DNA from: a virus
Virus record (IMG/VR): IMGVR_UViG_3300006195_000008
Span: 1 to 20,196 of that record
Length of the DNA stretch: 20,196 bases
Strand: one strand, 5' to 3'
A program made the position numbers and the translations under genes. The notes under the pieces are model-generated. The model was given only the letters and a program-made list of their open reading frames with translations, was not told the DNA's origin and searched no databases. Below are positions 2,342 to 20,196 of this stretch, in pieces. The number at the start of each line of letters is the position of its first letter. The first letter of the stretch is position 1.

Positions 2342-2812
2342 ATGGAACAGAGTATTCTTATTAGTACAAAGAAGATTTTGGGCATTCCTGAAGACTATAC
2401 TGTCTTTGATCTCGATATTATTACCCATATTAATACCGCATTTTCTACTCTCACCCAGCTGGGCGTGGGTCCGGCTAATGGATTCATGATCGAGGACGAA
2501 AGTGCGGTTTGGGCTGATTTTATTACGGATTATCCGTCAGGGAATTATGATACGCCAACGGGGGATGATCTTCAATATAATTCAGTGAAATCGTACGTTT
2601 TCCTCAAAGTTCGACAGTTGTTCGACCCCCCATCGACATCATATCTAATTGCGGCAACTGAAAAGCAGATTCAAGAGCTCGAGTGGCGTTTGAATACGCA
2701 TAGAGAAGAAAATGAATGGGTAGATCCTGATCCTAATGTTCGTATTGTTGAAGATATTTATGACGGAACGGTTGTGGAGGTGACAAATAGGAGACGGACA
2801 TGGCGACGGTAG
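2342..2812 (+). CDS. Head-tail connector-like (gp6/gp15-type) protein
   Basis: A 156-residue, mostly helical protein. Conserved-looking segments are SILISTKKILGI (4-15), DYTVFDLDIITHINTAFSTL (18-37), the LGVGPANGF loop (40-48), SVKSYVFLKVRQLFDPP (about 82-98) and a late ELEWRLN helix. This pattern matches a family I recall from many Gram-positive phages, annotated as head-tail connector or adaptor, related to HK97 gp6 and SPP1 gp15, which form a ring under the portal. Its position is odd: it lies among lysis and fibre genes, 9 kb upstream of the main connector genes at 13033-13639. That leaves open another role, for example at the tail tip. The start ATG 2342 follows a GTGGGTGTGAG stretch. 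Its 3' end overlaps the next gene by 13 bp. Confidence 0.65.
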   Translation: MEQSILISTKKILGIPEDYTVFDLDIITHINTAFSTLTQLGVGPANGFMIEDESAVWADFITDYPSGNYDTPTGDDLQYNSVKSYVFLKVRQLFDPPSTSYLIAATEKQIQELEWRLNTHREENEWVDPDPNVRIVEDIYDGTVVEVTNRRRTWRR

Positions 2813-3162
2813 ATATAGGACCTCCTAAAGTTGACCTGCTTCGTATTCGTGCCGGTGATCGGAATCTGTTCACTATGAAGTTGACGCAAAACGATCAGCC
2901 TTTTGATCTTACCGGATTGACGATCGAAGCACAAGCAAGATCTACGCCGATTGATACAGTTATTGCTGTTACCGCAGTTATTACAGTTATTGACGCCGAA
3001 CAAGGACACTTCGAGATGCGTTGGCCAGGCAATGAAGTACGAGCTTTGGTCGCCGACAAGGTAGCTTGGAACGGCGTATGGGATTTGCAGGTCGGTAACG
3101 GTTCGGATCCTCAGACGTTGATGGCAGGAGTATTCACGGTCGAGCCGGATGTGACCAGATGA
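2800..3162 (+). CDS. Baseplate/minor tail protein with BppU-like Ig-type domain
   Basis: A 120-residue beta-rich protein resembling the N-terminal domain of phage upper baseplate (BppU-like) proteins. Visible hallmarks are an early IRAGDRNLFTMKLTQNDQPF strand pair, then DLTGLTIEAQARS, a middle VIDAEQGHFEMRWP strand with the typical 'G.f.m.w' pattern, and a C-terminal WDLQV...GVFTVEPDVTR. In known phages this domain anchors receptor-binding or fibre modules to the tail tip. Here it stands alone and is followed, with a 4-bp ATGA overlap, by a short collagen-like protein, so the two could work as a split fibre. An AGGAGA ribosome site lies about seven bases before ATG 2800. The family assignment is moderately secure; the virion location is inferred. 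Confidence 0.7.
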   Translation: MATVDIGPPKVDLLRIRAGDRNLFTMKLTQNDQPFDLTGLTIEAQARSTPIDTVIAVTAVITVIDAEQGHFEMRWPGNEVRALVADKVAWNGVWDLQVGNGSDPQTLMAGVFTVEPDVTR

Positions 3163-3407
3163 GTACGTCTATCGAAGTAAATTCAGAAACCGAGTTGACG
3201 CTTGATTTAGCGACTCAAATAATCGGCGTTACTCAAAAAGGAATCGAGATAAGTATCGATGTTCCAGAGGCCCCGGATATTATTGTAGGGATGCCGGGGC
3301 CTACTGGTCCTCCCGGTCCTCAAGGACAATGGGAGGCTCTTACACAAGCTCAATATGATGCACTTGATCCGCCGGATTTTGATACTCTCTACGTAATCGT
3401 CGGATAG
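3159..3407 (+). CDS. Short collagen-like tail fibre protein
   Basis: An 82-residue protein with three visible parts. An N-terminal acidic beta segment (1-43) is followed by a short collagen-like stretch, GMPGPTGPPGPQG (44-56), with Gly every third residue. The C-terminal motif is WEALTQAQYDALDPPDFDTLYVIVG (58-82), of which LTQ.QYDAL...D.DTLYVI is a tail-fibre ending I recall from several phage minor tail proteins. Collagen-like repeats in phage fibres usually promote trimers. The gene overlaps the Ig-like gene by four bases, which suggests translational coupling and a physical partnership. It is too short to be a whole receptor-binding fibre, so it is more likely a linker or tip subunit. Confidence 0.7.
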   Translation: MSTSIEVNSETELTLDLATQIIGVTQKGIEISIDVPEAPDIIVGMPGPTGPPGPQGQWEALTQAQYDALDPPDFDTLYVIVG

Positions 3408-3415
3408 GAGAGATA

Positions 3416-3811
3416 ATGGCAACTGGATTAGCATCGGCGATTGCGCAGGCTATGTTGAATGCGCTTTGTCGTAATGTTGCTTGGACTCAACCAGCAGGCT
3501 TTTTCGTTAAATTGCATACGGCCGATCCAGGAGCTGCGGGTGCAACTGCGGCTTTCGGTGATGCAACTCGACAGCCTGTTACGTTTTCGGCAGCTGCTGC
3601 AGATGGTACGATCACTAACTCGGCTGATGTGAACTGGGTGAACGTGACGGCAGCAGGAACAGTTACGCATGTTTCTTTCTGGTCCGCATCTTCAGGTGGT
3701 ACTTTCCTTGGTTCGGACGATCTAGCAACTCCGCGTACGCTTTCGATTGGTGACAACTTTACGATCTTGGCGGGTGATGTCGATCTAAGTCTCGCTCCGA
3801 TCGCAGCGTAA
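3416..3811 (+). CDS. Minor tail protein (actinophage-type fibre domain)
   Basis: A 131-residue, beta-rich, Ala/Thr/Ser-rich protein. The start SAIAQAMLNALCRN, then FFVKLHTADPGAAG (29-42), NWVNVTAAGTVTHVSFWSAS (73-92) and GGTFLGSD followed by a terminal beta segment with GDNFTI match a small minor tail protein family that I recall as common in actinobacterial phages. There it lies among fibre genes near the tail tip. The role in binding the host surface is inferred. An AGGAGAG site (3405-3411) precedes ATG 3416, and the stop overlaps the start of the long fibre gene by one base (TAATG). Its composition matches the N-terminal third of the next gene, and both are probably parts of one adhesion module. 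Confidence 0.75.
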   Translation: MATGLASAIAQAMLNALCRNVAWTQPAGFFVKLHTADPGAAGATAAFGDATRQPVTFSAAAADGTITNSADVNWVNVTAAGTVTHVSFWSASSGGTFLGSDDLATPRTLSIGDNFTILAGDVDLSLAPIAA

Positions 3812-6800
3812 TGCCTCCGGTTCTTGATACCGTAGGAGCAGCGATTGCTTCAGGTAACAATGTTTCTACTCCAACTACGTTGACGCCAGCTCTTCCTGCG
3901 CATTCGGTAGGAGAGTTACTACTCGCGGCAACTTTCTGCCGATCAGGAACTCCAACTGTCGCGACTCCATCTGGATGGACACAGCTGGTTAATGTAGCTG
4001 GTACAAACGGCAGAATTGCTTTGTTTGGGAAAATCGCAGCGTCAGGTAGTGAGAGTGCTCCGAGTATTGTCTGGTCAGGTTTGACAACCGGTACGTCTGG
4101 TACTCCGGTTCAAGCTCAATGTGCTGTTTTCTCAGGTATGTTGGATACGATTACCGGAATTACCGATGTTCTTGGAACGGTTGAGAATGGTGCAGCTAGT
4201 ACCAGCGCTGCTGCAAGTGGAAATGCGATTACGACGGTTGATCCTGACGATTGTGTAATCGCGCTTTCGTGTCGATTGGATGATGTTGGTACTTGGACGC
4301 CACCGGCTGGATTTACAGCAATCGGTTCTGCTCTTACAACTTCCGGTGCCGATATGTCCTTTGCCTGGGCTTATCAGGTCAAGGCAACTCCAGGTTCAGT
4401 AGCACCTGCAGATTTTGGTCTCGTTGGAGCATCGAGTTTTGCTTCTAGTGGTATCTTGATTGCACTCAAGAAGCGAATTCCAGTAACGCTCTTTGGCGCA
4501 GTCTCTATGCCGATTACCTTTGAGGCTGTTACTCAATGGAGAGTACTTCCTAAAACTGAGACGCTGATTGACGAGTTTAATACTCTTGATACGACCAAAT
4601 GGAAACTGAGAACTAATGTTGCTCTTTCAGGAGGTCAAGCAAGACTTGTAAATCAGACAACAGTTGAGGCTGTTCTTGCAACGAATAGTCCTGGAATACT
4701 TGAATACGATTTTACTAAATCATCGGTTTTAGGTATGGTTACTCCCTCTCTATTGCCGCCGACTAATTTTTCTCGATATACTAATTTCGCAGTTCGAACG
4801 GGAGTTGAGGGCGATTATGTAGGATGGAGTATTATTGCATACTCAACAGGTCAGGTTGATATTAAGGGCGGCGTGTTTAAAAATCATGCCGTGCAAGCTG
4901 GGGGTTATCAAGCTGCATATAATGCGACGGCTCATAAGTACCTTCGTATGCGTGAAAATAATGGTACTGTTTATTTAGATACATCTCCAGACGGAAGTAC
5001 ATGGACGCAACGAGTAGCTACTGCTTGTGATTTACCTCTTAATAAAGTAAGAATTTCTTTTGTATCTAAATCGCCCTTGGATGGCGAAGCTCTTGATTAT
5101 GCTTATCTCGATAATTTTAATTATACTATTCCGAAAATGGAAACGTTTCAGGACGATTTTGCATCACCGCCTGCGCCGCCTAAATGGAACGATGGCTCAG
5201 ATTACGGATGGGATATTAGTCAACGTCTTCTTCTCAATTGTGTTGTAGCATATGGCTATATTTCTACGTGGGATGGTGGAACAGGAGGTGTTTATGATTT
5301 AATAGGATCGTATATTCATGCGAAGGTAACGCCGCCTCCTGTTGGTACTGGAACAAAAGAAACATATATGGAAGTTAGTAGGATGGGTACTTCCGGTGCG
5401 ACTCGAGACGGTGTTTCTCTTTTCGTTGCTGGTTCAAATTTAGGCGCATTCAAGAAAATTGCTGGAGCTACTGTCGCATCGGCTACATCACGACCTTACG
5501 ATCCAGTAAACGATCAGTGGTTTCGCATTCGAGAACAAGCTGGGACAATCTACTGCGATACTTCACCTGATGGTATAAGTTGGACGAATTTCTGGTCGAC
5601 ACCTGCGAATTTCGACGTAACAAGATGTTGGGCAGCATTTACTTCTGGTTATTATGGAACTGAAACCGCTTCACAAGCTTCTATCGATAGTGTTAATGTC
5701 CCGCAAGTTCCGACTGGTCCGACTACATATTACGGGATTACTTCTACAGCGCTGGCGTTTAATCAAGTCGTACAAGGTCGACGTCGAACGTTTAGTCAAA
5801 TCGCTGCACCGTTTGTATTCGCCAAAGAAGTTCAAGGTCGACGCAAAGTATTCGGACAGATAGCGTCACCGTTTCTATTCGCCAAAGAAGTTCTGGCTCA
5901 ACGCAAGACTTTTGGACAAATCACAGCACCGTTCGTGTTTGTCAAGGATCTTCAGGGCCAACGCAAGACTTTTGGACAAATCACAGCACCGTTCGTGTTT
6001 GTCAAGGATCTTCAGGGCCAACGCAAGACGTTCGGACAAATCGCTGCTCCATTTGTATTCTCGAAAGACGTTCAAGGTCGACTTAAAGTATTTGGACAGA
6101 TCGCATCGCCGTTCCTATTCTTCAAAGATGTTCAGGCCCGACGTAAGACGTTTGGCCAAATTCTCTCTCCATATCTTTTTTCTAAAGATATTCGTGGTCA
6201 GCGAAAAACATTTAGTTCAATAGATTCGCCGATAACTATTCCGATCTCAATAGCTGGATCTCGTGTCGGTTTGACTCTTTATGGAGTTGTAGCTCGTCCG
6301 ATTGCTTTTGGAGCAGCTGTTGACGGAAAGCGAAAAACGTTCGGACAAATCGTAGCACCTTTTGCATTTGTCAAGGATCTTCGCGGGCAACGCAAGACGT
6401 TCGGTCAAACATCGCTTCCGATCATATTCATAAAGGAAGCGGTTGGACGCGAATGGATGTATGGCCAAACGTCAATGCAGACGTTGTTCGGAAAGGAAGT
6501 GTCAGGACGTCGAAAGACATTTGGCCAGCTTGCGTTTCCGATGAATTTTACCAGAGATCTTCGTGGTAGTCGGAAAACTTTCGGCAAGATCGATGATCTT
6601 CTCATATTTACAGCGTTTGTCGACGGTCGGGGATTTGTAGGATCGAAGACTTATTATGGGAAGATTGACAGTCCGTTTACTTTCTCAAAACAATTCTCGG
6701 CTTCTCGCAAGACATTCGGGAGAATCATAGCTCCTCATATTTTTGGATCCGCTTCGCAAGGGATTAGACAGACGTTTGGTGAGCTAGATTTTCCTATGGA

Positions 6801-6996
6801 TTTGCTTTTCGATGCGGAAACAGGATTGATCGAGGCTTATGGTCAAGTTTCCTTGCCGATGCTTGTTGAGTTCGACGTTACGGGAAATGTAAGAGTAAGC
6901 GGAATAATTTTGAATGACGCACTAGCTCTTTATTTGGGAATTAAGCCTGTAGAGGCAGTCTATACCGAAGGTATTAAAGTCTGGCCATCCGAATAG
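3811..6996 (+). CDS. Large minor tail protein / fibre with LamG-like domains and tandem repeats
   Basis: A 1061-residue probable tail fibre. Residues about 1-225 form an actinophage-type beta domain (VLDTVGAAIASGN, then TPSGWTQL, ending SSGILIALKKR). Two concanavalin/LamG-like domains follow, about 248-440 (ETLIDEFNTLDTTKWKL; DTSPDGSTWTQR) and 445-632 (METFQDDFASPPAPPKWND; DTSPDGISWTNF). Such domains often bind sugars. From about 637 to 1035 lie roughly 19 repeats of about 20 residues with consensus RKTFGQI.APF.F.KD.QG. A single related unit (TLFGAVSMPITF) also occurs between the first and second domains. The C-terminus (about 1036-1061) is unique. The ATG is joined to the upstream stop (TAATG). 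Its role as an adhesion fibre is inferred; its internal repeats make length variation likely. Confidence 0.8.
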   Translation: MPPVLDTVGAAIASGNNVSTPTTLTPALPAHSVGELLLAATFCRSGTPTVATPSGWTQLVNVAGTNGRIALFGKIAASGSESAPSIVWSGLTTGTSGTPVQAQCAVFSGMLDTITGITDVLGTVENGAASTSAAASGNAITTVDPDDCVIALSCRLDDVGTWTPPAGFTAIGSALTTSGADMSFAWAYQVKATPGSVAPADFGLVGASSFASSGILIALKKRIPVTLFGAVSMPITFEAVTQWRVLPKTETLIDEFNTLDTTKWKLRTNVALSGGQARLVNQTTVEAVLATNSPGILEYDFTKSSVLGMVTPSLLPPTNFSRYTNFAVRTGVEGDYVGWSIIAYSTGQVDIKGGVFKNHAVQAGGYQAAYNATAHKYLRMRENNGTVYLDTSPDGSTWTQRVATACDLPLNKVRISFVSKSPLDGEALDYAYLDNFNYTIPKMETFQDDFASPPAPPKWNDGSDYGWDISQRLLLNCVVAYGYISTWDGGTGGVYDLIGSYIHAKVTPPPVGTGTKETYMEVSRMGTSGATRDGVSLFVAGSNLGAFKKIAGATVASATSRPYDPVNDQWFRIREQAGTIYCDTSPDGISWTNFWSTPANFDVTRCWAAFTSGYYGTETASQASIDSVNVPQVPTGPTTYYGITSTALAFNQVVQGRRRTFSQIAAPFVFAKEVQGRRKVFGQIASPFLFAKEVLAQRKTFGQITAPFVFVKDLQGQRKTFGQITAPFVFVKDLQGQRKTFGQIAAPFVFSKDVQGRLKVFGQIASPFLFFKDVQARRKTFGQILSPYLFSKDIRGQRKTFSSIDSPITIPISIAGSRVGLTLYGVVARPIAFGAAVDGKRKTFGQIVAPFAFVKDLRGQRKTFGQTSLPIIFIKEAVGREWMYGQTSMQTLFGKEVSGRRKTFGQLAFPMNFTRDLRGSRKTFGKIDDLLIFTAFVDGRGFVGSKTYYGKIDSPFTFSKQFSASRKTFGRIIAPHIFGSASQGIRQTFGELDFPMDLLFDAETGLIEAYGQVSLPMLVEFDVTGNVRVSGIILNDALALYLGIKPVEAVYTEGIKVWPSE
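5721..6900 (+). repeat. Tandem ~60-bp coding repeats in the fibre gene
   Basis: About 19 head-to-tail units of roughly 60 bp encode the 20-residue R-K-T-F-G-Q-I repeat. The central block at about 5760-6200 is the most regular, with eight near-contiguous units on an exact 60-bp period. Outer units (6200-6900) are more diverged and vary by a few codons. Spacing is set by the reading frame, with no unique spacers between units, which excludes a CRISPR array. The pattern points to growth by repeated unequal exchange or replication slippage, followed by drift. Confidence 0.9.
5899..6029 (+). repeat. Exact recent 60-bp tandem duplication
   Basis: Bases 5899-5969 are identical to 5959-6029, that is 71 consecutive matching positions at a 60-bp offset. 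The next base differs (t at 5970 against g at 6030), as does the base before. The two copies encode identical repeat units QRKTFGQITAPFVFVKDLQG. All other adjacent units differ at several positions, so this is probably the newest unit in the array. Confidence 0.95.
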
Positions 6997-7360: not shown

Positions 7361-8131
7361 ATGACTAGTGTAAGTGAAATTGGCCAGCAAGCGGTCAACG
7401 AGATTCTTCATATTTCAGAAAGACCATGGAGCGCCTATACAGAAGCTGATTATACGATTGAACAGTGGCATTCTGCATGTTTGATCCATTTGCATAGTGG
7501 CTCTCCTACCTCAAAAAGTGAATGTAAGCTTCCTGTTAAGACACCGAATGGGGCGTTGAATCGAAACGGAGTTCACGCTGCCGCTGCTGCATTGGCTGGA
7601 GCTCGAAGTCCACTTAAGGCATCTTCTGAACAGAAAGCAAAAGCGGCTCGAGCTCTTAGGGGATACTATAGTCAATTGGGAGAAGAGCCTCCGGATTCTT
7701 TGAAGCAGTCCGACAATATGGTCGAAGATATTCTCACCCATCACGGTGTTAAGGGAATGAAGTGGGGTGTCCGTAGAAAGGCTACTGTCGGTCCTCAAGA
7801 GGTTGTTATTAGCGATAGAAGAAAGAGGATCAAGACTTCTGGAGGAGAAGGACATCCTGCACATCCTGAAGCAGTTCGATCCCGACAGATTGGACAAGTC
7901 GGAAGGAAGAGCGGACTCAAGGCACTTTCAAATGCTGAGCTTCAGGCATACAATCAGCGTTTGAACATGGAGCAGCAGACCAAACGTCTTATGTATGAGG
8001 ATTCCTCTCCTCCGAGGAAGTTTATCCTAAGTCTTCTGAGACAAACTGGTAGACAGCAGGCTAACGAAGCAGCAAATCAGGTCGCATCTAAGCAAGTTAA
8101 AAAGCTTCTTGCCAAAGCTGCAATAGCTTAG
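7361..8131 (+). CDS. Capsid-region protein with KGMKWGVRR motif
   Basis: A 256-residue protein. Residues about 24-115 (YTIEQWHSACLI; KLPVKTPNGALNRNGVHAAA; QKAKAARALRGYY; LGEEPPDSL) resemble a conserved block I recall attached to capsid maturation proteases in actinobacterial phages. There it reads roughly 'LPVREPDGTLN.NGVHAAAA.LAGARGG'. Here the protease part is absent. A short linker leads to ILTHHGVKGMKWGVRRK (124-140), a motif recurrent in many Gram-positive phage structural proteins, of unknown role. The rest is basic and helical (NAELQAYNQRLNMEQQTKRL near 190-210). Two GGAGG-like sites lie upstream (7338-7354). The gene sits directly before the large terminase. It is probably an internal head or ejected virion protein; no enzyme motif is visible. 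Confidence 0.65.
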   Translation: MTSVSEIGQQAVNEILHISERPWSAYTEADYTIEQWHSACLIHLHSGSPTSKSECKLPVKTPNGALNRNGVHAAAAALAGARSPLKASSEQKAKAARALRGYYSQLGEEPPDSLKQSDNMVEDILTHHGVKGMKWGVRRKATVGPQEVVISDRRKRIKTSGGEGHPAHPEAVRSRQIGQVGRKSGLKALSNAELQAYNQRLNMEQQTKRLMYEDSSPPRKFILSLLRQTGRQQANEAANQVASKQVKKLLAKAAIA

Positions 8132-13032: not shown

Positions 13033-13374
13033 ATGGCAAGGTTCTTTGGACGTGTTGGTTATGGTCAAGCGGTAGAAACTGCGCCTGGCGTGTGGGTAGA
13101 TTCGATTGTTGAGCGCTCCTATTATGGAGATATTATCCGCAATGCGAGAGTTCTTCGTGAAGGAGAGAACCTCAATAAGGATCTCAGTGTTCAAAATTCA
13201 ATTAGCATTTTGGCTGACGCATATGCAAACGATCATTTCTTCGCTATTCGTTACGTGGAGTGGGCGGGGGCTTTGTGGACAGTCTCAACGGTTGAAGTAC
13301 AGAGTCCTCGCCTTATTTTAAGACTGGGGGAGGTGTACAATGGCCCCACGTCTGCAATTGCAGGAACTCCTTGA
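13033..13374 (+). CDS. Head-tail connector (head closure-type) protein
   Basis: A 113-residue beta-rich protein immediately after the capsid gene. It reads FFGRVGYGQAVETAPGVWVD (4-23), then ERSYYGDIIRNARVL (27-41), then AYANDHFFAIRYVEWAGALW, and ends with VEVQSPRLILRLGEVYN. This matches a small conserved protein I recall directly downstream of protease/capsid fusions, thought to be a head-tail connector or stopper that retains packaged DNA and receives the tail. An in-frame ATG at 12988 would add 15 residues, but those overlap the capsid 3' end and look like read-through. ATG 13033 is preceded by an AAAGGTAGG site and gives the family-typical start. The 3' end overlaps the terminator gene by 35 bp. 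Confidence 0.85.
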   Translation: MARFFGRVGYGQAVETAPGVWVDSIVERSYYGDIIRNARVLREGENLNKDLSVQNSISILADAYANDHFFAIRYVEWAGALWTVSTVEVQSPRLILRLGEVYNGPTSAIAGTP

Positions 13375-13639
13375 GACATTTACGCCAAACGTTTATTTTC
13401 AACCGCCTACCAATATTCAATTGCAATATCCTTGTATTATTTACAGGCGTGATTTCGCCCAGACAAAATTTGCGGATGATCTTGCTTACGATTACTACAT
13501 CAGATATCAAATTACGGTCATCGATCGGGATCCGGATAGCGAAATTCCGGAAAAAGTGGCCTTAATGCCAATGAGTTTGTTCAATCGATTCTATACGGTC
13601 GATAATTTAAATCATGATGTTTTTAACGTGTACTTCTAA
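13340..13639 (+). CDS. Tail terminator / tail completion protein
   Basis: A 99-residue protein starting at ATG 13340, behind GGGGGAGGTG and inside the end of the connector gene. Conserved-looking pieces are LQELLETF (7-14), NVYFQPPTNIQLQYPCIIY (17-35), FADDLAYDYYIRYQITVIDRDPDSEIPEKV and the terminal VDNLNHDVFNVYF. I recall this pattern for small tail terminator proteins of Gram-positive siphophages, which cap the growing tail tube at final length and join it to the head. Position between the connector and the first tail tube gene fits. The short overlap suggests coupled translation with the connector, in similar amounts. Confidence 0.85.
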   Translation: MAPRLQLQELLETFTPNVYFQPPTNIQLQYPCIIYRRDFAQTKFADDLAYDYYIRYQITVIDRDPDSEIPEKVALMPMSLFNRFYTVDNLNHDVFNVYF

Positions 13640-13654
13640 GGGGAAAGGACAAAA

Positions 13655-14311
13655 ATGGCTCCCTTGACCTGGGACCAGGTCGGCGAGAGATTGTATGAAA
13701 CCGGTGTTGATCACGGAGTTCTGTATCTTCCTGATGATGCCGGTGTATACAATTCTGGTTTTGCTTGGAATGGTCTCACGACCGTTACCGAATCGCCGTC
13801 CGGCGCGGAAGCGACTCCGCAGTATGCAGACAATATCAAGTACTTGAACATGATTTCTGCCGAAGAGTTCGGCGCAACGATCGAGGCGTTCACGTATCCG
13901 GAAGAGTTCGGTCAGTGTGATGGTACCGCTCTTCCTGCTCCGGGAGTCGCCGTTGGACAGCAGGGTCGGAAGATGTTTGGTTTGAGCTATAGGACTAGGG
14001 TCGGAAATGATGTTGAGGGCTCGGAATTTGGCTATAAGCTCCATCTTCTGTACGGTTGTCAGGCTGCTCCGTCGGAGAAGGCCTACGCTACAATCAATGA
14101 TTCACCGGAGGCGATCGCATTTAGCTGGGAAGTTACGTCTACTCCCGTTCCGGTTACCGATCATAAGCCGACGTCTCTCATTGTGGTTGATTCGACGATT
14201 GTAGATCCTGCTGATCTTGCAGCACTCGAGGATCTTCTCTACGGCAAGGCCTCGATTGAAGCGGCTCTCCCTACTCCGGATGCAGTCATCGCACTTTTCG
14301 GAACGCCGTAA
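13655..14311 (+). CDS. Major tail protein (tail tube), copy 1
   Basis: A 218-residue tail tube subunit. The N-terminus PLTWDQVGERLYETGVDHGVLY, the central EAFTYPEEF and GLSYRTRVGNDVEG, then YKLHLLYGCQAAPSEKAYATI and HKPTSLIV are all matched in the second tube protein at 14887. The fold expected is the beta-sandwich shared by tube proteins of long-tailed phages, whose hexameric rings stack to build the tail. AAGGGGAAAGGA precedes ATG 13655, a strong ribosome site in keeping with an abundant product. Unlike copy 2, it ends after the tube domain, with no extra C-terminal domain. It is followed by the chaperone gene, the usual order. The functional assignment is secure at family level. Confidence 0.92.
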   Translation: MAPLTWDQVGERLYETGVDHGVLYLPDDAGVYNSGFAWNGLTTVTESPSGAEATPQYADNIKYLNMISAEEFGATIEAFTYPEEFGQCDGTALPAPGVAVGQQGRKMFGLSYRTRVGNDVEGSEFGYKLHLLYGCQAAPSEKAYATINDSPEAIAFSWEVTSTPVPVTDHKPTSLIVVDSTIVDPADLAALEDLLYGKASIEAALPTPDAVIALFGTP

Positions 14312-14331: not shown

Positions 14332-14874
14332 ATGCTCACTATTGTTGTTCCTGGTGTCGAAATGTATGACGAACAAGTAGAAGAGTTCGTCACTATCGGC
14401 GACGTGACGTTGGATCTTGAGCATTCCTTAGTCTCACTGTCAAAATGGGAGTCAACTTACGAGAAACCTTTTCTGGGTAAGGGCGAGAAGACGACAGAAG
14501 AGGTTTCCGACTACATAAAGATGATGACTTTGACTCCTGATGTTCCAGAGGAAGTTTTCCTCAAACTTTCTGAAGAGAATGTCAAGGCTATCAATAACTA
14601 CATCGATGCCAAGATGACTGCGACTTGGTTCAACGAACGCCCTGGAGCTCCGCAAAGTCGAGACGTCATTACTGCCGAGCTTATTTACTATTGGATGATC
14701 TCTTTTCAAATCCCATTCGAATGTGAGAATTGGCATCTTAATCGATTGTTTACATTGATCCGAGTTTGCAACATCAAGCAAGCTAAGCCTAAGAAGATGA
14801 GTCGTGCTGAAATCGCCGCTAGGAACCGAGAACTCAATGCTCAACGTAGAGCACAGCTCGGAACTAAGGGTTAG
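14332..14874 (+). CDS. Tail assembly chaperone
   Basis: A 180-residue protein matching a conserved family I recall lying between tail tube and tape measure genes in Gram-positive phages. The match includes [21 protein letters not shown] (about 28-48), [20 protein letters not shown] (53-72), [37 protein letters not shown] and [16 protein letters not shown], with a basic C-terminal tail. Such proteins bind the tape measure during tail assembly, like lambda gpG. Many phages make a longer form by frameshifting. Here no downstream overlapping frame is plausible and no clear slippery heptamer is visible near the end. CAGGAGG (14318-14324) precedes the start. The stop is a TAG in the same frame as the next gene, four codons before its ATG. 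Confidence 0.88.
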
Positions 14875-14886
14875 AAAGGGGGTGAC

Positions 14887-15699
14887 ATGGCGGTTCTCAC
14901 CTGGGATCAAATCGGTGAGAGAATTTATCAAACCGGTGTTGATCGTGGAGTTCTTTATCTACAGGATGGTACGGTGGTGGCTTGGAATGGGCTCATCAGT
15001 ATTGAGGAGTCTCCGAGCTCGGAATTGAAGTCGTTTTTCCTCGATGGAGTGAAGTATTTGGAAAATTTGGCTCCGGGGGATTTTCTAGGAAAACTTTCTG
15101 CATTTACTTATCCTGATGAATTCGACAACGTTAATGGAATTGCTCGTGTTGCTCCTGGATTGTCGTATCACGATCAGCCCGCAAAGAGTTTCAACTTATC
15201 GTATCGAACGAGAGTTGGCAACGACATCGAGGGCGAAGAATACGGATACAAGATTCACATTCTCTACAATCTTCTCGCCACTCCAGAAGGTGTTGCGTAT
15301 GCAACCATTCAGGATTCAGGTGTTGCGCCAATTACGTTTGCTTGGAGTTTGACTGGTACGCCGTCGAAAACGATCAAGCATAAACCAACGGTTCACATTT
15401 CTATCGATTCAAGGACAACACCTCCTGAAATTTTGACCTTGTTGGAAAATCAACTTTATGGAACTGAGAAAACTTCTCCTAGTCTTCCTCCGATCTCAGA
15501 AGTTGGAGAATATTTCGGGTATCGAGGCGCACTTCTCATCGTCGATATCGGAGATGGCACTTGGTTAGGTATTGATGAATCGGATACTTATATCGACATG
15601 ACCGATCTCACCACTTTCGAGATTAACGGCGCCGACGCTACATATTTAGATCCAGATACATACACTGTTTCATCCACCAATATCGGCGAACAAGACTAA
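14887..15699 (+). CDS. Second major tail-like protein with C-terminal extension
   Basis: A 270-residue paralogue of the tail tube protein at 13655. By eye roughly half of the aligned residues are the same: LTWDQIGERIYQTGVDRGVLY (4-24), SAFTYPDEF, NLSYRTRVGNDIEGEEYGYKI and IKHKPTVHISID. It keeps the full tube domain (about 1-215) and adds about 55 residues (GALLIVDIGDGTWLGIDESD through DPDTYTVSS) that look like a small Ig-like or decoration domain. AAAGGGGGTGA precedes ATG 14887. It may build a special ring, decorate the tube, or mix with copy 1 as extended subunits do in SPP1. Its neighbours are a collar fibre and a glycine-rich adhesin, hinting at a joint adhesion role. Confidence 0.85.
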   Translation: MAVLTWDQIGERIYQTGVDRGVLYLQDGTVVAWNGLISIEESPSSELKSFFLDGVKYLENLAPGDFLGKLSAFTYPDEFDNVNGIARVAPGLSYHDQPAKSFNLSYRTRVGNDIEGEEYGYKIHILYNLLATPEGVAYATIQDSGVAPITFAWSLTGTPSKTIKHKPTVHISIDSRTTPPEILTLLENQLYGTEKTSPSLPPISEVGEYFGYRGALLIVDIGDGTWLGIDESDTYIDMTDLTTFEINGADATYLDPDTYTVSSTNIGEQD

Positions 15700-15709
15700 G
15701 GGAGGTGAA

Positions 15710-16447
15710 ATGGCTACAATTACCGGTCTTACTGCCGAGAGAATGCTGGAAATTGAAGGGGCCACGGTTGTTGGTGGGGATATTGTCGGTGGTCATCTGA
15801 TTCTTCATAAGCATGACGGAACAGATGTCGATGCGGGCCCTATGCCACCGGGTCCACAAGGTCCAGTCGGTCCTGCCGGAGGTCTGATCCCGGGTGAGAT
15901 CAGAATTTGGCCTGGAAATTCGCTTCCGTTAGTCGCTGACTTTGGTAAATGGGTTTGGGCGGATGGAGCAGTCTATGCTGTTGCGACATATCCCAAAGCA
16001 GCTGCGAATATTGCGTCTCAGTGGCGTACATTTGGTGGAGCTAGTGATCCAGGAGCCAGCAATTTCCGAGTTCCTGACATTCGAGGCTTGATACCAGCTG
16101 GTTTGGATCAGATGCCTGGTGGAGCTCGAGCGAATCGACTTACTCGCTCAGTTTCAATCGTGATTGCAGGAAGAACGGGCGAAGAGATTCATACTATCAC
16201 GGTTCCTGAGATGCCTGCTCACGGTCATCCTCTTACAGATCCTGGTCATAGTCATATCGGTGGTACTCTAAGATTTTTAGGTGGTGAAGGTTATGACATG
16301 ACAGGTACTGCTGGTTATCCTGTGGGTCAGTGGGGTGTAGGATCAGCCGTTACGGGTATCACGATTGGTAACAATGGCGGTGGAGCTGCTCACGAGAACA
16401 TGCAGCCAACGGTTTTTGTACCTTATATTGTAAAATTGGACGATTAA
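15710..16447 (+). CDS. Tail collar-domain fibre protein with collagen-like linker
   Basis: A 245-residue fibre. Residues 1-45 form an N-terminal attachment-like segment (GDIVGGHLILHKHDGT). Residues about 46-57 are collagen-like (PPGPQGPVGPAG). A phage tail collar domain begins at about 61: GEIRIWPGNSLP, WVWADGAVYAVATYP and FRVPDIRGLIPAGLDQM. The end, GGAAHENMQPTVFVPYIVKL, is the standard collar-family terminus. Two His-x-His pairs (171/173 and 180/182; HGHPLTDPGHSH) recall metal-binding His sites of trimeric T4 fibres. A receptor-binding or fibre-tip role is likely. Its position between tail tube and tape measure genes, not with the distal tail genes, is unusual. AAGGGAGGTGA precedes the start. 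Confidence 0.85.
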   Translation: MATITGLTAERMLEIEGATVVGGDIVGGHLILHKHDGTDVDAGPMPPGPQGPVGPAGGLIPGEIRIWPGNSLPLVADFGKWVWADGAVYAVATYPKAAANIASQWRTFGGASDPGASNFRVPDIRGLIPAGLDQMPGGARANRLTRSVSIVIAGRTGEEIHTITVPEMPAHGHPLTDPGHSHIGGTLRFLGGEGYDMTGTAGYPVGQWGVGSAVTGITIGNNGGGAAHENMQPTVFVPYIVKLDD

Positions 16448-16448
16448 A

Positions 16449-17321
16449 ATGAGAATTGAGCTCGCAGGGAGTCTGATTCGTCCTGCTCCATTGACTTTGA
16501 AATACGATTCTAATCAAATTTTCGATACTTTGAAGTACATCGATCTAGGATACACCAATTTCGAGGTAATTTGTATTGGTGGTGGCGGTGGAATGGGTGG
16601 AGGCATCGATACTGCTAATACAGGAACTCAGCTTAAAAGCTATGGCGGAGCTGGCGGTGGCGGTGGATTTCATCGAGTTCGCGGATTGTTGTCGGCTTTA
16701 CCTGATAGTTGCGCGATTGTGGTCGGAGCTGGCGGTGCTGTAGGAACCGGTCATGCAAGTAATCCAGCCAATACTACCGACGGTGGTAATGGAGGAGCTT
16801 CGACGTTCAATACCAATACCTGCCGGGCGTCTGGTGGTGAAGGTGGAAAACGCGTCCAAACAAATTCGCCGACAGCGTCCACGCTTGCTAACGGTGGTGC
16901 TGGTGGAGCGGGTAACCGTAGTGCCGTGGGTGGTGGAGCTGCCGGAGGGGTTGCGGGTGTTCCAACAGCAACGGGTCCTGGAACTCCGGGTACTGCGGGG
17001 GCCGATGGAACATTTATCAACAATGTAGGAAAAGGTGGTGGAGGAGGTGCAGGTGGCGTTGGTAAGTACGGAGGAGTCACTTGCAACGCGGGTACGAACG
17101 GAGGACGAGGCTCATACAACCCCGGGGACACGTCCGTCTATGGACCAGGAGACACGCCCGGAAACGATGCCAGTAGTGCCGCAGCAGCAATCATCCCTGG
17201 AGGTGCCAGTGGGGCAAAAGCTTCTCCGATTAACGGTTTGCCTTATATATTTGGGCAGTCTCGGGGTGATCTTCTACCTGGTGATCCAGGTGTTGTAATC
17301 ATTCGTCTTACTGTGGAATAG
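16449..17321 (+). CDS. Glycine-rich putative tail adhesin
   Basis: A 290-residue protein that is very rich in glycine through about 55-275 (GGGGGMGGG, GGAGGGGG, GGGGGAGGVG). An N-terminal beta segment (1-52: LTLKYDSNQIFDTLKYIDLGY) and a C-terminal DPGVVIIRLTVE strand flank it. Glycine-rich domains with this ending are known in phage fibres. In the T4-like phage S16 a similar polyglycine core packs as a sandwich that displays receptor-binding loops. The non-Gly stretches (NTNTCRASGGEG; TCNAGTNGGRGSYNPGDTSV) may be such loops. The ribosome site is weak, and the start lies two bases after the upstream stop, so translation is probably coupled to the collar fibre gene. Confidence 0.75.
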   Translation: MRIELAGSLIRPAPLTLKYDSNQIFDTLKYIDLGYTNFEVICIGGGGGMGGGIDTANTGTQLKSYGGAGGGGGFHRVRGLLSALPDSCAIVVGAGGAVGTGHASNPANTTDGGNGGASTFNTNTCRASGGEGGKRVQTNSPTASTLANGGAGGAGNRSAVGGGAAGGVAGVPTATGPGTPGTAGADGTFINNVGKGGGGGAGGVGKYGGVTCNAGTNGGRGSYNPGDTSVYGPGDTPGNDASSAAAAIIPGGASGAKASPINGLPYIFGQSRGDLLPGDPGVVIIRLTVE

Positions 17322-17327
17322 GATCTC

Positions 17328-17705
17328 ATGATTACTATCACACAGAAAGGATCGTTTAATCGTACGGAAAGATATTTGCAAAGAATGAAATCTGGTCAGG
17401 TATTTGCGATTCTGAATAAGTACGGAACAATAGGTCAGAACGCCTTGTCGAACGCTACTCCAGTCGATACAGGCTTGGCCGCAGGATCATGGTATTTCAC
17501 CGTTGTCAATCGACCAGGATATTACTCTATTCGTTGGCACAATAGCGATGTCGAGAACGGTTTTCCTGTAGCTATCATGATTGACTATGGCCATGGTACT
17601 GGAACCGGCGGATATGTACAAGGGCGTAACTACATTATGCCTGCAATTCGACCTATATTTGACCAGATGGTAGCGGATATTTGGAGGGAGGTGAATCGCA
17701 TCTAA
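17328..17705 (+). CDS. HK97-gp10-like neck/tail completion protein
   Basis: A 125-residue protein with N-terminal ITITQKGSFNRTERYLQRM, then ATPVDTGLAAGSWYF (43-57), SIRWHNSDVENGFPVAIMIDYGHGTGTGGYVQG and NYIMPAIRPIFDQMVADIWREV. The 'TPVDTG...SW' block with the later YGHGTG.GGYV...Y..PA pattern is typical of HK97-gp10-like proteins that act at the head-tail joint or tail completion. In the lineage I recall, this variant lies immediately before the tape measure, as here, so its place is normal even though it is far from the other connectors. AGGA before ATG 17328 is a modest site. The stop overlaps the tape measure start by one base. Confidence 0.85.
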   Translation: MITITQKGSFNRTERYLQRMKSGQVFAILNKYGTIGQNALSNATPVDTGLAAGSWYFTVVNRPGYYSIRWHNSDVENGFPVAIMIDYGHGTGTGGYVQGRNYIMPAIRPIFDQMVADIWREVNRI

Positions 17706-20196
17706 TGGCTGTCGATGACAAAGTCGTTGCTATTAGTTTTGAATCAAGTAGATTTGAACAGGGTGTTAACAGAACTATTTCGGCTCTTGACAGGCTCAAA
17801 GCTGCTCTTCACTTCCCTAATGCCGGAAAAGGTTTGAGCGATATCGATGCTGCGGCTAAGAAAGTCGATATGGGTCATATTGCTAAGGGGATCGAAGGTG
17901 TAAAAAGCGCCCTTAGCACGTTAAGGCTGGTGGGAGTTGCTGTACTGGCAGATCTGGCTTCAAAAGCTCTTCATGCTGGAACCCAATTTGTCAAGGCGTT
18001 TACCATTGATCCAATCAAAGCTGGTTTTGGCGAGTATACGACTAATCTAAACGCTGTTCAGACGATCCTGGCCAATACCCAAGCTGCGGGAACTAAGCTG
18101 AAAGATGTTAATGCCGCACTCAAAGAACTGAACGAGTATTCCGACAAGACGATCTATAACTTCAGCCAGATGGCCAAGAACATCGGTACCTTCACGGCTG
18201 CCGGTGTCGATCTTGACACAGCAACTGGCGCCATCAAGGGTATCGCCAACTTGGCGGCACTTTCCGGGTCGAACGCTGAGCAGGCCTCGACGGCGATGTA
18301 TCAGCTGTCTCAGGCTATCTCGGCTGGTCGAGTCTCATTGCAGGACTGGAACTCCGTTGTCAATGCTGGTATGGGCGGTACCGTCTTCCAGCGCGCTTTG
18401 GCTCAGACGGCCGTGGCGATGGGAACGTTGGAAGACAAGTCGCTCAAGCTTGTCGGTCCGATGAAGAACGTTGCGATCAACGGAGAGTCGTTCCGTCAGT
18501 CTATCTCGGCAGCCCCTGGAAAAGAGTCGTGGCTGACGTCCAAAGTTCTGACCGCAACGCTTCAGCAGTTTACGGGCGATCTGTCCAGGGCTGAACTCGC
18601 GGCTATGGGCTTCAATGCAGCTCAGATCAAGGCGATTCAGCAGACGGCCAAGACGGCAATGCACGCTGCTACCCAGGTGAAGACCCTTCAGGGCGTGCTG
18701 GATACGGCCAAGGAAACGGCGCAGTCTGGCTGGGCTCAGACTTGGGAGATCATATTTGGTAACTTCGGAGAGGCCAAGACGACGTTTACGGCTCTCTCCA
18801 ACGCTATCAATGGATTCATCAGTGCCAACGCAGATGCACGTAACAAAGTTCTGGAAGATTGGAAAGCTCTTGGCGGACGTACAGTTCTGATCGAGGGCAT
18901 CAAGAACGCATTCAACGCCCTGAAAGCAGTTATTGCCCCTATTAAGGAAGCGTTCAGAGACATATTCCCACCTGTCACTGGAAAGAATCTCTATGATCTG
19001 ACAGTACGTTTCCGAGACTTCACCGCAGGACTAAAGCCGAGCGTCGAGACGGTTGAGAATCTAAAACGCACGTTCCGAGGCCTCTTTGCCATTTTCAGCA
19101 TCATCGGACAGGTCGTTCAGGGCGTATTTAGCGTTTTTGCTCGTCTTTTCGGTGTAGTCGGAGAGGGTACGGGCGGTTTCCTGAATTTCACCGGCAGTAT
19201 CGGTGATTTCCTCGTTTCAGTAGATAAAGCCTTGAAGAAGGGCGATGGGCTAACGAAGTTCTTCGACAAGCTCGGAGATATTCTCGAGATCCCGATCAGA
19301 TTGATTGGGGATTTGGCGAGCGCAATTGCAAGTTTGTTCAGCGGATTTTCCTCCGGGGGATTTTCTGGACAAATGGAGGGCATGGCCTCGGCTATGAGTC
19401 CTCTTGCGCGAATTATCGATGGAATCGCCAGCGCTTGGGACAATTTCGTAGATAGCGTCAAGCAGAGCGGAGTTCTGCAGGCCGCTTTCGACGGGATTAT
19501 CAATTTCATCTCGGCAATTGGGCCTGCTATCGGCAAGGCAGCAGCGAGCATGAATTTCGAGGCTATATTTGCCGTTATCAGAACTGGTCTCTTCGCAGCG
19601 CTTGTTGTGATGCTCAAGAACTTCTTCGGTAAGGGAAGTTTCTTGGATCAGATCAGCAAGGGCTTTGCTGGCGGGATCATGAAGAATATCGCAGGCTCGT
19701 TCGGAGCTCTCGAGAAGACGATGGTGGGTCTTCAGCAGAACATCAAGGCGAAGACGCTCAAGGAAATTGCCATCGCGATCGGAATTCTTGCGGCTTCGGT
19801 CGTTGCTCTGTCCTTTGTCGATCCGGCGAAGCTTAACAAGGCTTTGGCTGGAATTGCCATCATGATGGGTGAGCTTCTCGCGGCTATGGCCGTTTTGGAC
19901 AAGATTGCCATGGCGGGAGGATTTATCAAGCTTCCCATTATCGCAGCAGGGTTGATTCTCCTTGCCGGAGCCATCGATATTCTCGTGATTGCGGTATATG
20001 CCCTCAGTCGACTCAGTTGGGACGAGCTGCTCAGAGGTCTCGGCGGTGTCGGGGCGCTTCTGATCGGTATCTCCGCAGCATCATATCCTTTGTCGGCAAA
20101 TGCCGCAGGGATGATCCGAGCAAGTATCGGTATTACCGGTATCGCGATTGCCATGAATCTCTTGGCTCTCGCAGTGAAGCAGTTTGCCGGTCTGTC
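17705..20196 (+). CDS. Tape measure protein (3' end beyond the window)
   Basis: Open frame of at least 830 codons running off the right edge. The start is ATG 17705 (TAATG with the upstream stop) behind GGAGGGAGGTG. The N-terminus reads VVAISFESSRFEQGVNRTIS, then DIDAAAKKVDMGHIAKGIEG. The conserved block at about 95-250 includes FTIDPIKAGFGEYTTNLNAVQTILA, IYNFSQMAKNIGTFTAAGVD and SAGRVSLQDWNSVVNAGMGG, the typical TP901-1-like tape measure core. Later parts are helical with hydrophobic stretches near 680-790 (IAIAIGILAASVVALSF; IIAAGLILLAGAIDILVIAVY), possibly membrane segments used at DNA entry. The protein sets tail length and is often ejected into the host. No enzyme motif is visible in the part present. 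Composition in 18130-18760 seems more GC-rich than the first 350 bases. Confidence 0.96.
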   Translation, partial: MAVDDKVVAISFESSRFEQGVNRTISALDRLKAALHFPNAGKGLSDIDAAAKKVDMGHIAKGIEGVKSALSTLRLVGVAVLADLASKALHAGTQFVKAFTIDPIKAGFGEYTTNLNAVQTILANTQAAGTKLKDVNAALKELNEYSDKTIYNFSQMAKNIGTFTAAGVDLDTATGAIKGIANLAALSGSNAEQASTAMYQLSQAISAGRVSLQDWNSVVNAGMGGTVFQRALAQTAVAMGTLEDKSLKLVGPMKNVAINGESFRQSISAAPGKESWLTSKVLTATLQQFTGDLSRAELAAMGFNAAQIKAIQQTAKTAMHAATQVKTLQGVLDTAKETAQSGWAQTWEIIFGNFGEAKTTFTALSNAINGFISANADARNKVLEDWKALGGRTVLIEGIKNAFNALKAVIAPIKEAFRDIFPPVTGKNLYDLTVRFRDFTAGLKPSVETVENLKRTFRGLFAIFSIIGQVVQGVFSVFARLFGVVGEGTGGFLNFTGSIGDFLVSVDKALKKGDGLTKFFDKLGDILEIPIRLIGDLASAIASLFSGFSSGGFSGQMEGMASAMSPLARIIDGIASAWDNFVDSVKQSGVLQAAFDGIINFISAIGPAIGKAAASMNFEAIFAVIRTGLFAALVVMLKNFFGKGSFLDQISKGFAGGIMKNIAGSFGALEKTMVGLQQNIKAKTLKEIAIAIGILAASVVALSFVDPAKLNKALAGIAIMMGELLAAMAVLDKIAMAGGFIKLPIIAAGLILLAGAIDILVIAVYALSRLSWDELLRGLGGVGALLIGISAASYPLSANAAGMIRASIGITGIAIAMNLLALAVKQFAGL

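Follow-up and report, generated by a model that had tools for sequence, protein, structure and literature searches.

A second tail tube protein whose C-terminal tag co-occurs with the N-terminal module of a neighbouring fibre in a soil phage and its relatives

In the tail gene region of a soil phage, the second of two tail tube paralogs (MTP2) carries a C-terminal tag of ~55 residues (CTD2), and the collar-domain fibre encoded by the next gene starts with a module of ~45 residues (NT1). In the relatives of this phage that were examined, the tag and the module occur together without exception, NT1 is absent elsewhere in the genomes, and the payload behind NT1 is exchanged for domains of other kinds. 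We propose that MTP2 would form a low-copy ring of the tail tube, in which CTD2 serves as the tag that docks the NT1 protein as a side fibre; judged by sequence comparison, this arrangement appears rather likely.

The window, i.e., the whole stretch of 20,196 bases that was analysed, represents one end of a 50,777-base IMG/VR contig (99.995% over the full window length). From position 13340, all on the + strand, it encodes a tail terminator (13340..13639; phrog_78, E 3e-10), the canonical tube protein MTP1 (218 aa; 13655..14311; phrog_2645, E 2e-106), a 180-aa gene product in the tail-chaperone position, which is conserved in relatives (14332..14874; phrog_4338, function unknown), MTP2 (270 aa; 14887..15699), the NT1 fibre (245 aa; 15710..16447), a Gly-rich protein (290 aa; 16449..17321; Pfam Gly_rich_2, E 6.6e-12), a gp10-like/Neck1 tail-completion protein (17328..17705; phrog_5, E 2e-12) and the start of the tape measure protein (17681..20196; phrog_4372, E 6e-297), which runs off the window. 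The original prediction had read 14887-17321 as a second tube protein, a collar-domain fibre with His-x-His pairs and a glycine-rich protein, flanked by the chaperone, gp10-like and tape measure genes. The three ORFs are real and complete, each has a separate start, and these assignments, as well as the flanks (PHROG matches), were confirmed.

It was also claimed that these 2.4 kb had been inserted into a lineage with the order tube, chaperone, gp10-like, tape measure; this part is rejected. The MTP2 tube protein has relatives in 243 named phages, predominantly phages of Arthrobacter, Gordonia and Streptomyces, and nearly all of these have two tube-protein places per genome. In the annotated maps of about two dozen phages, those with two tube proteins show the order terminator, MTP1, chaperone, MTP2, 1-6 variable genes, gp10-like, tape measure, and in some the interval from the chaperone to MTP2 contains additional genes or a third tube paralog. 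Among the variable genes are those for a GH46 chitosanase (Rima, Scarif) and LysB (Mossy, ReqiPepy6), and Truckee has GDSL hydrolases upstream of MTP2. The order that had been taken for the norm is found only in relatives with a single tube protein, i.e., Lactococcus phages 1706 and P078, two saliva phages and the contig L073, where it holds give or take small genes and with an amidase in the slot of one. The gene-order argument thus fails: the module is old and widespread in the lineage. Three ORFs of other kinds were seen in this comparison: a 350-aa ORF between the chaperone and MTP2 of L142 (1578-2630) has, by eye, the motif HxGVKGMKWGVR; the same motif (DUF7211) occurs in an ORF before the terminase of the window (7361-8131); and a 278-aa ORF between the chaperone and MTP2 of L065 (2870-3706) resembles, by eye, papain-family cysteine proteases (motifs SCTA and RNSWGxxWG).

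MTP2 belongs to the tube-protein family phrog_2645 ('major tail protein', E 1.3e-77). The top Foldseek matches of its model (pLDDT 69.6, weak in CTD2) are tail tube proteins, with probabilities up to 0.99, the best E-value being only 3e-3 and the TM-scores about 0.3-0.45. A sequence search of solved structures gave no match, and no relatives were found in bacterial and archaeal genomes. In a tree of the tube core, one branch separates MTP1 and the single-copy proteins from all MTP2-like proteins, indicating that MTP2 derives from an ancient tube-protein duplication. CTD2 occupies about aa 210-264 of MTP2 (15514..15678) according to profile matches, and it is present only where NT1 is; MTP1 of the window phage has no C-terminal extension.

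The two paralogs differ in codon usage. Measured against the capsid gene, the codon adaptation of MTP1 has a median of 0.61 and that of MTP2 a median of 0.40, and MTP1 has the higher value in 45/45 loci; the usage of MTP1 is capsid-like, and that of MTP2 is at the level of the chaperone and the fibre. It should be noted that codon bias reflects copy number or expression only indirectly. MTP2 thus does not show the high expression expected of a major virion component, and it is probably a tube paralog but not a 'major' one. Since the codon bias seen in MTP1 and the capsid is absent from MTP2, a few rings fit these data better than a shaft-wide component.

In the arrangement we propose, MTP2 would replace the normal tube subunit in one or few rings. 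CTD2 would project outward and dock NT1 of the (presumably trimeric) fibre encoded by the neighbouring gene, and this fibre, with its T4 gp12-like collar, would form a side fibre projecting from the tube. The Gly-rich protein probably serves as an accessory adhesin or as a tip, at or close to the fibre. A swap of the payload behind NT1 would alter the contact with the host and leave the mount unchanged. We infer docking, placement in the tube and an adhesive role from the comparisons given here, and low copy number from codon usage; the position of the ring is likewise inferential and may be near the neck or near the tip.

In one placement compatible with the low-copy ring, MTP2 is located at the head-proximal end and the fibre forms a whisker of the neck or collar, at a site similar to that of the lactococcal neck passage structure. 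The cluster adjoins the gp10-like/Neck1 tail-completion gene, and the low copy number expected from codon bias suits a whisker; however, a ring on the tip side agrees with the data just as well, the sequences showed no relationship to the neck passage structure, and the nps gene of 936 phages lies upstream of the tube gene (PMC4759559), whereas the window fibre gene lies downstream of both tube genes. We regard the whisker as possible but somewhat doubtful. According to another explanation, MTP2 is mixed with MTP1 through the whole tube, and many fibres decorate the shaft, as the original prediction had suggested when it placed adhesins along the tail. This would agree with the fully tube-like character of MTP2 (phrog_2645, Foldseek), and there is a precedent in the 936 phages, where an MTP-TpeX fusion and the plain MTP together produce a spiral tail decoration (PMC4759559). 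The codon bias of MTP2, below that of MTP1 in every locus compared, is suggestive of few copies instead, and decoration of the whole shaft is therefore unlikely.

The window fibre has a Collar domain (Pfam Collar, E 2.2e-8) and is related in sequence to the T4 short tail fibre (1OCY, E 1.3e-5). Its His-x-His segment, followed by a hypervariable stretch (16190..16255; alignment A2), includes H161, H171 and H173, which are invariant across the 14 aligned sequences, and these pairs resemble a metal site. The monomer model of the fibre is poor (pLDDT 46.6). NT1 corresponds to aa 1-43 (15710..15838), as delimited by alignment; it usually precedes collagen-like repeats, of the GPxGP type in the window fibre, and consists of a short helix and beta strands in a low-confidence model (pLDDT about 70-75 at aa 21-40). 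Neither CTD2 nor NT1 has a model in Pfam or NCBIfam.

The payloads behind NT1 vary. Among 70 diverse NT1 proteins, Collar domains were detected in 21, Laminin_G_3 in 19, Gly_rich_2 in 6 and C1q/BclA in 1. In Rima and Scarif, the NT1 protein has only 86-88 residues, and the chitosanase gene is next. In the window, the fibre gene starts 10 bp past the MTP2 stop, behind a strong Shine-Dalgarno sequence. At the MTP2-fibre junctions of relatives, all three stop codons are used, the frame of the fibre is distributed 40/23/9 among 72 cases, and most fibre genes have a strong ribosome site of their own, so that the payload is a separate protein. An MTP2-fibre fusion produced by frameshift or readthrough is rejected on the same grounds, as neither the stop nor the frame is conserved and the fibre has its own Shine-Dalgarno sequence.

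The pairing of the tag and the module was found in two samples. In a non-redundant set of 75 closed slots, 55 have CTD2 together with NT1, 20 have neither, and no slot has one without the other; for 4 more CTD2 genes located at contig ends, the beginning of an NT1 fibre can be read in the remaining DNA of 3. Conversely, when loci were fetched by NT1 alone, a CTD2-bearing ORF was directly upstream in 78/78 mapped cases, and the unmapped locus L211 also fits (79/79). These 79 loci are not all independent, because only about 59 are distinct in sequence and some contigs had already been reached via MTP2. A pairing between the C-terminal domain of the second tube protein and the N-terminus of the collar fibre, as originally predicted, is thus consistent with co-occurrence throughout both samples. 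On the tree of the MTP core, CTD2 changes 8 times, at least 5 of these changes being forced by well-supported branches. NT1 tracks CTD2 in all 5 supported pairs, and the Gly-rich gene does not; a sign test restricted to the supported branches yields p 0.0625, so that the tree test is suggestive and not conclusive.

In the genomes searched, NT1 is confined to this place. Over 47 whole phage records, the NT1 profile has matches in 32, and the 15 records with no match are those that lack CTD2. The strong matches, where compared with maps, fall between the chaperone and gp10 genes of a CTD2-bearing locus; one weak match elsewhere (E 0.009) is probably due to chance. A general fibre start that may occur anywhere in the genome is rejected for NT1, having not been seen in the 47 records. 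The original prediction held that a location of these genes at the distal tail, with no link to tube proteins, would speak against it, and NT1 was not found at the distal tail in any of these records.

The same co-occurrence could arise by linkage without contact: CTD2 would serve, e.g., capping or tube stability, and the NT1 fibre would be mounted elsewhere, e.g., on Dit. In most loci the fibre gene follows directly on the gene whose 3' end encodes CTD2, so one exchange could move both without any contact between the proteins. The mirror-tree test is in line with this, the partial correlation between CTD2 and NT1 (0.376) being no higher than that of CTD2 with the chaperone or gp10, i.e., there is no signal of specific co-evolution. 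However, in several Streptomyces phages a 244-aa unrelated gene separates MTP2 from the NT1 fibre and the pairing still holds, CTD2 and NT1 change together several times on the tree, the neighbouring Gly-rich gene does not follow them, and a second, unrelated tag/module pair obeys the same rule. We consider linkage without contact quite improbable.

The Gly-rich gene is not part of a fixed unit with the two genes before it, as had been predicted. Five relatives keep this gene and have neither CTD2 nor the fibre, so that it is separable from them. What stands of the claim of a host-facing unit on a tube paralog is the tie between CTD2 and the fibre module; the inclusion of the Gly-rich gene does not stand. 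The locus L074, in which a tube domain and laminin-G lectin domains are joined within a single 1340-residue ORF, supports a host-facing module tied to the tube paralog. Ingrid has a fusion of NT1 with a Gly-rich domain, and this links the third gene of the window to the module by analogy only. A tblastn search of the named phages with the Gly-rich protein gave no match, perhaps as a result of low-complexity masking.

Past the tape measure (L235 13422-15412), only Dit (phrog_33; Pfam Sipho_tail) and a Gp37-like hub (PF14594) were found. They are followed by small ORFs and, later, by one long ORF of a non-tail type; no fibre gene is recognisable after the tape measure of the 50,777-base contig. 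The NT1 fibre does not have the position of a distal-tail receptor-binding protein, being encoded before the tape measure and not after Dit and the hub. Other genes that resemble host-facing proteins lie to the left of the terminase in the window (2800-6996). These encode a BppU_N-like protein (PF10651), a collagen-like protein with a tail-tip domain (PF24243), a Gp80 fibre-type protein (PF23140) and a 1061-aa protein with ~35-residue 'RKTFGQI' repeats.

The tube paralogs of some Arthrobacter phages and of two contigs carry another C-terminal tag, with the hairpin-like pattern LxESxxxGLYxL. This pattern, which was composed after examples had been seen, occurs within the last 40 residues of 10/1377 ORFs, all of them tube paralogs or a tube fragment, and 8 of the 10 directly precede a fibre that starts with VDExxxFPPEIRxAL or a close variant (NT2). 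NT2 is not strictly confined to the slot, with a weak match near the left end of phage Gordon (E 8.9e-6). Given the post hoc pattern and this match, the second pair is a lead and not a test. Related arrangements were observed in other loci: (i) in L087 (4241-4537), L150 (8182-8478) and L152 (9283-9579), a 98-aa ORF consists of a tube-protein end and three hairpin repeats, and it directly precedes a 742-756-aa fibre that mixes NT2 and NT1 features; (ii) MTP2 of Ingrid (L009 6875-7792) has an extra N-terminal stretch with the hairpin-like motif LYEDPNDPGTYLI, as if the second tag had been relocated there, although the start codon may be misassigned.

A broader proposal is that the lineage uses a general plug-and-socket code, in which the tag of each low-copy tube paralog (CTD2 or the GLYxL hairpin) is specific for a single type of fibre N-terminus (NT1 or NT2), two or more such pairs can coexist per tail, and the payloads (lectins, enzymes, collar fibres) are exchanged freely; we consider the case for and against this code evenly balanced. 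Hundreds of cultured actinophages have duplicated tube proteins in their annotation, with no role stated. If MTP2 is an adaptor ring, it would provide a modular tail mount for host-binding parts, which would explain the presence of many different lectins and enzymes at one locus. CTD2 and NT1 could also serve as a sequence rule for candidate receptor-binding proteins in phages with no fibre after the tape measure. No description of tag/module pairing on tube paralogs was found in the literature searched, which includes only a minority of the subscription journals.

Parts of this system have known counterparts. The T4 short tail fibre gp12 is mounted on the myovirus baseplate. It shares with the window fibre the Collar-type body, the sequence similarity noted above and the His-x-His pairs; unlike gp12, the window fibre has the NT1 module, and its gene is located beside a tube paralog. 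In SPP1, one tube-protein gene yields a form with a C-terminal extension by frameshift (PMC6669499). The mixed tube and the extension on one form are features in common with the window lineage; the extension of SPP1 is a frameshift product, however, and the available part of that account mentions no fibre gene paired with it. The 'two major tail proteins' shared by actinophage clusters AM, AU, AW, BI, CC, DJ and EL (PMC11080557) are the same two genes in the same lineage, so the duplication was already known; the accessible portion of that paper assigns it no function and mentions neither a tag or module pairing nor a difference in expression. The closest counterpart described is the lactococcal 936 MTP-TpeX decoration, in which some of the tube subunits acquire a carbohydrate-binding extension through a +1 frameshift (PMC4759559, PMC6669499). 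Both systems have two tube-protein forms per phage, a special form with a host-binding extension, a variable region beside the tube gene and a carbohydrate-binding payload. The special form of the 936 phages is made by frameshift and its payload is covalent, whereas here the special form is a paralogous gene, no frameshift-fused payload is found, the payload gene is separate and has its own start, and the proposed link is that of a tag to a module. The MTP2/NT1 system would thus belong with the known tube-borne tail decorations.
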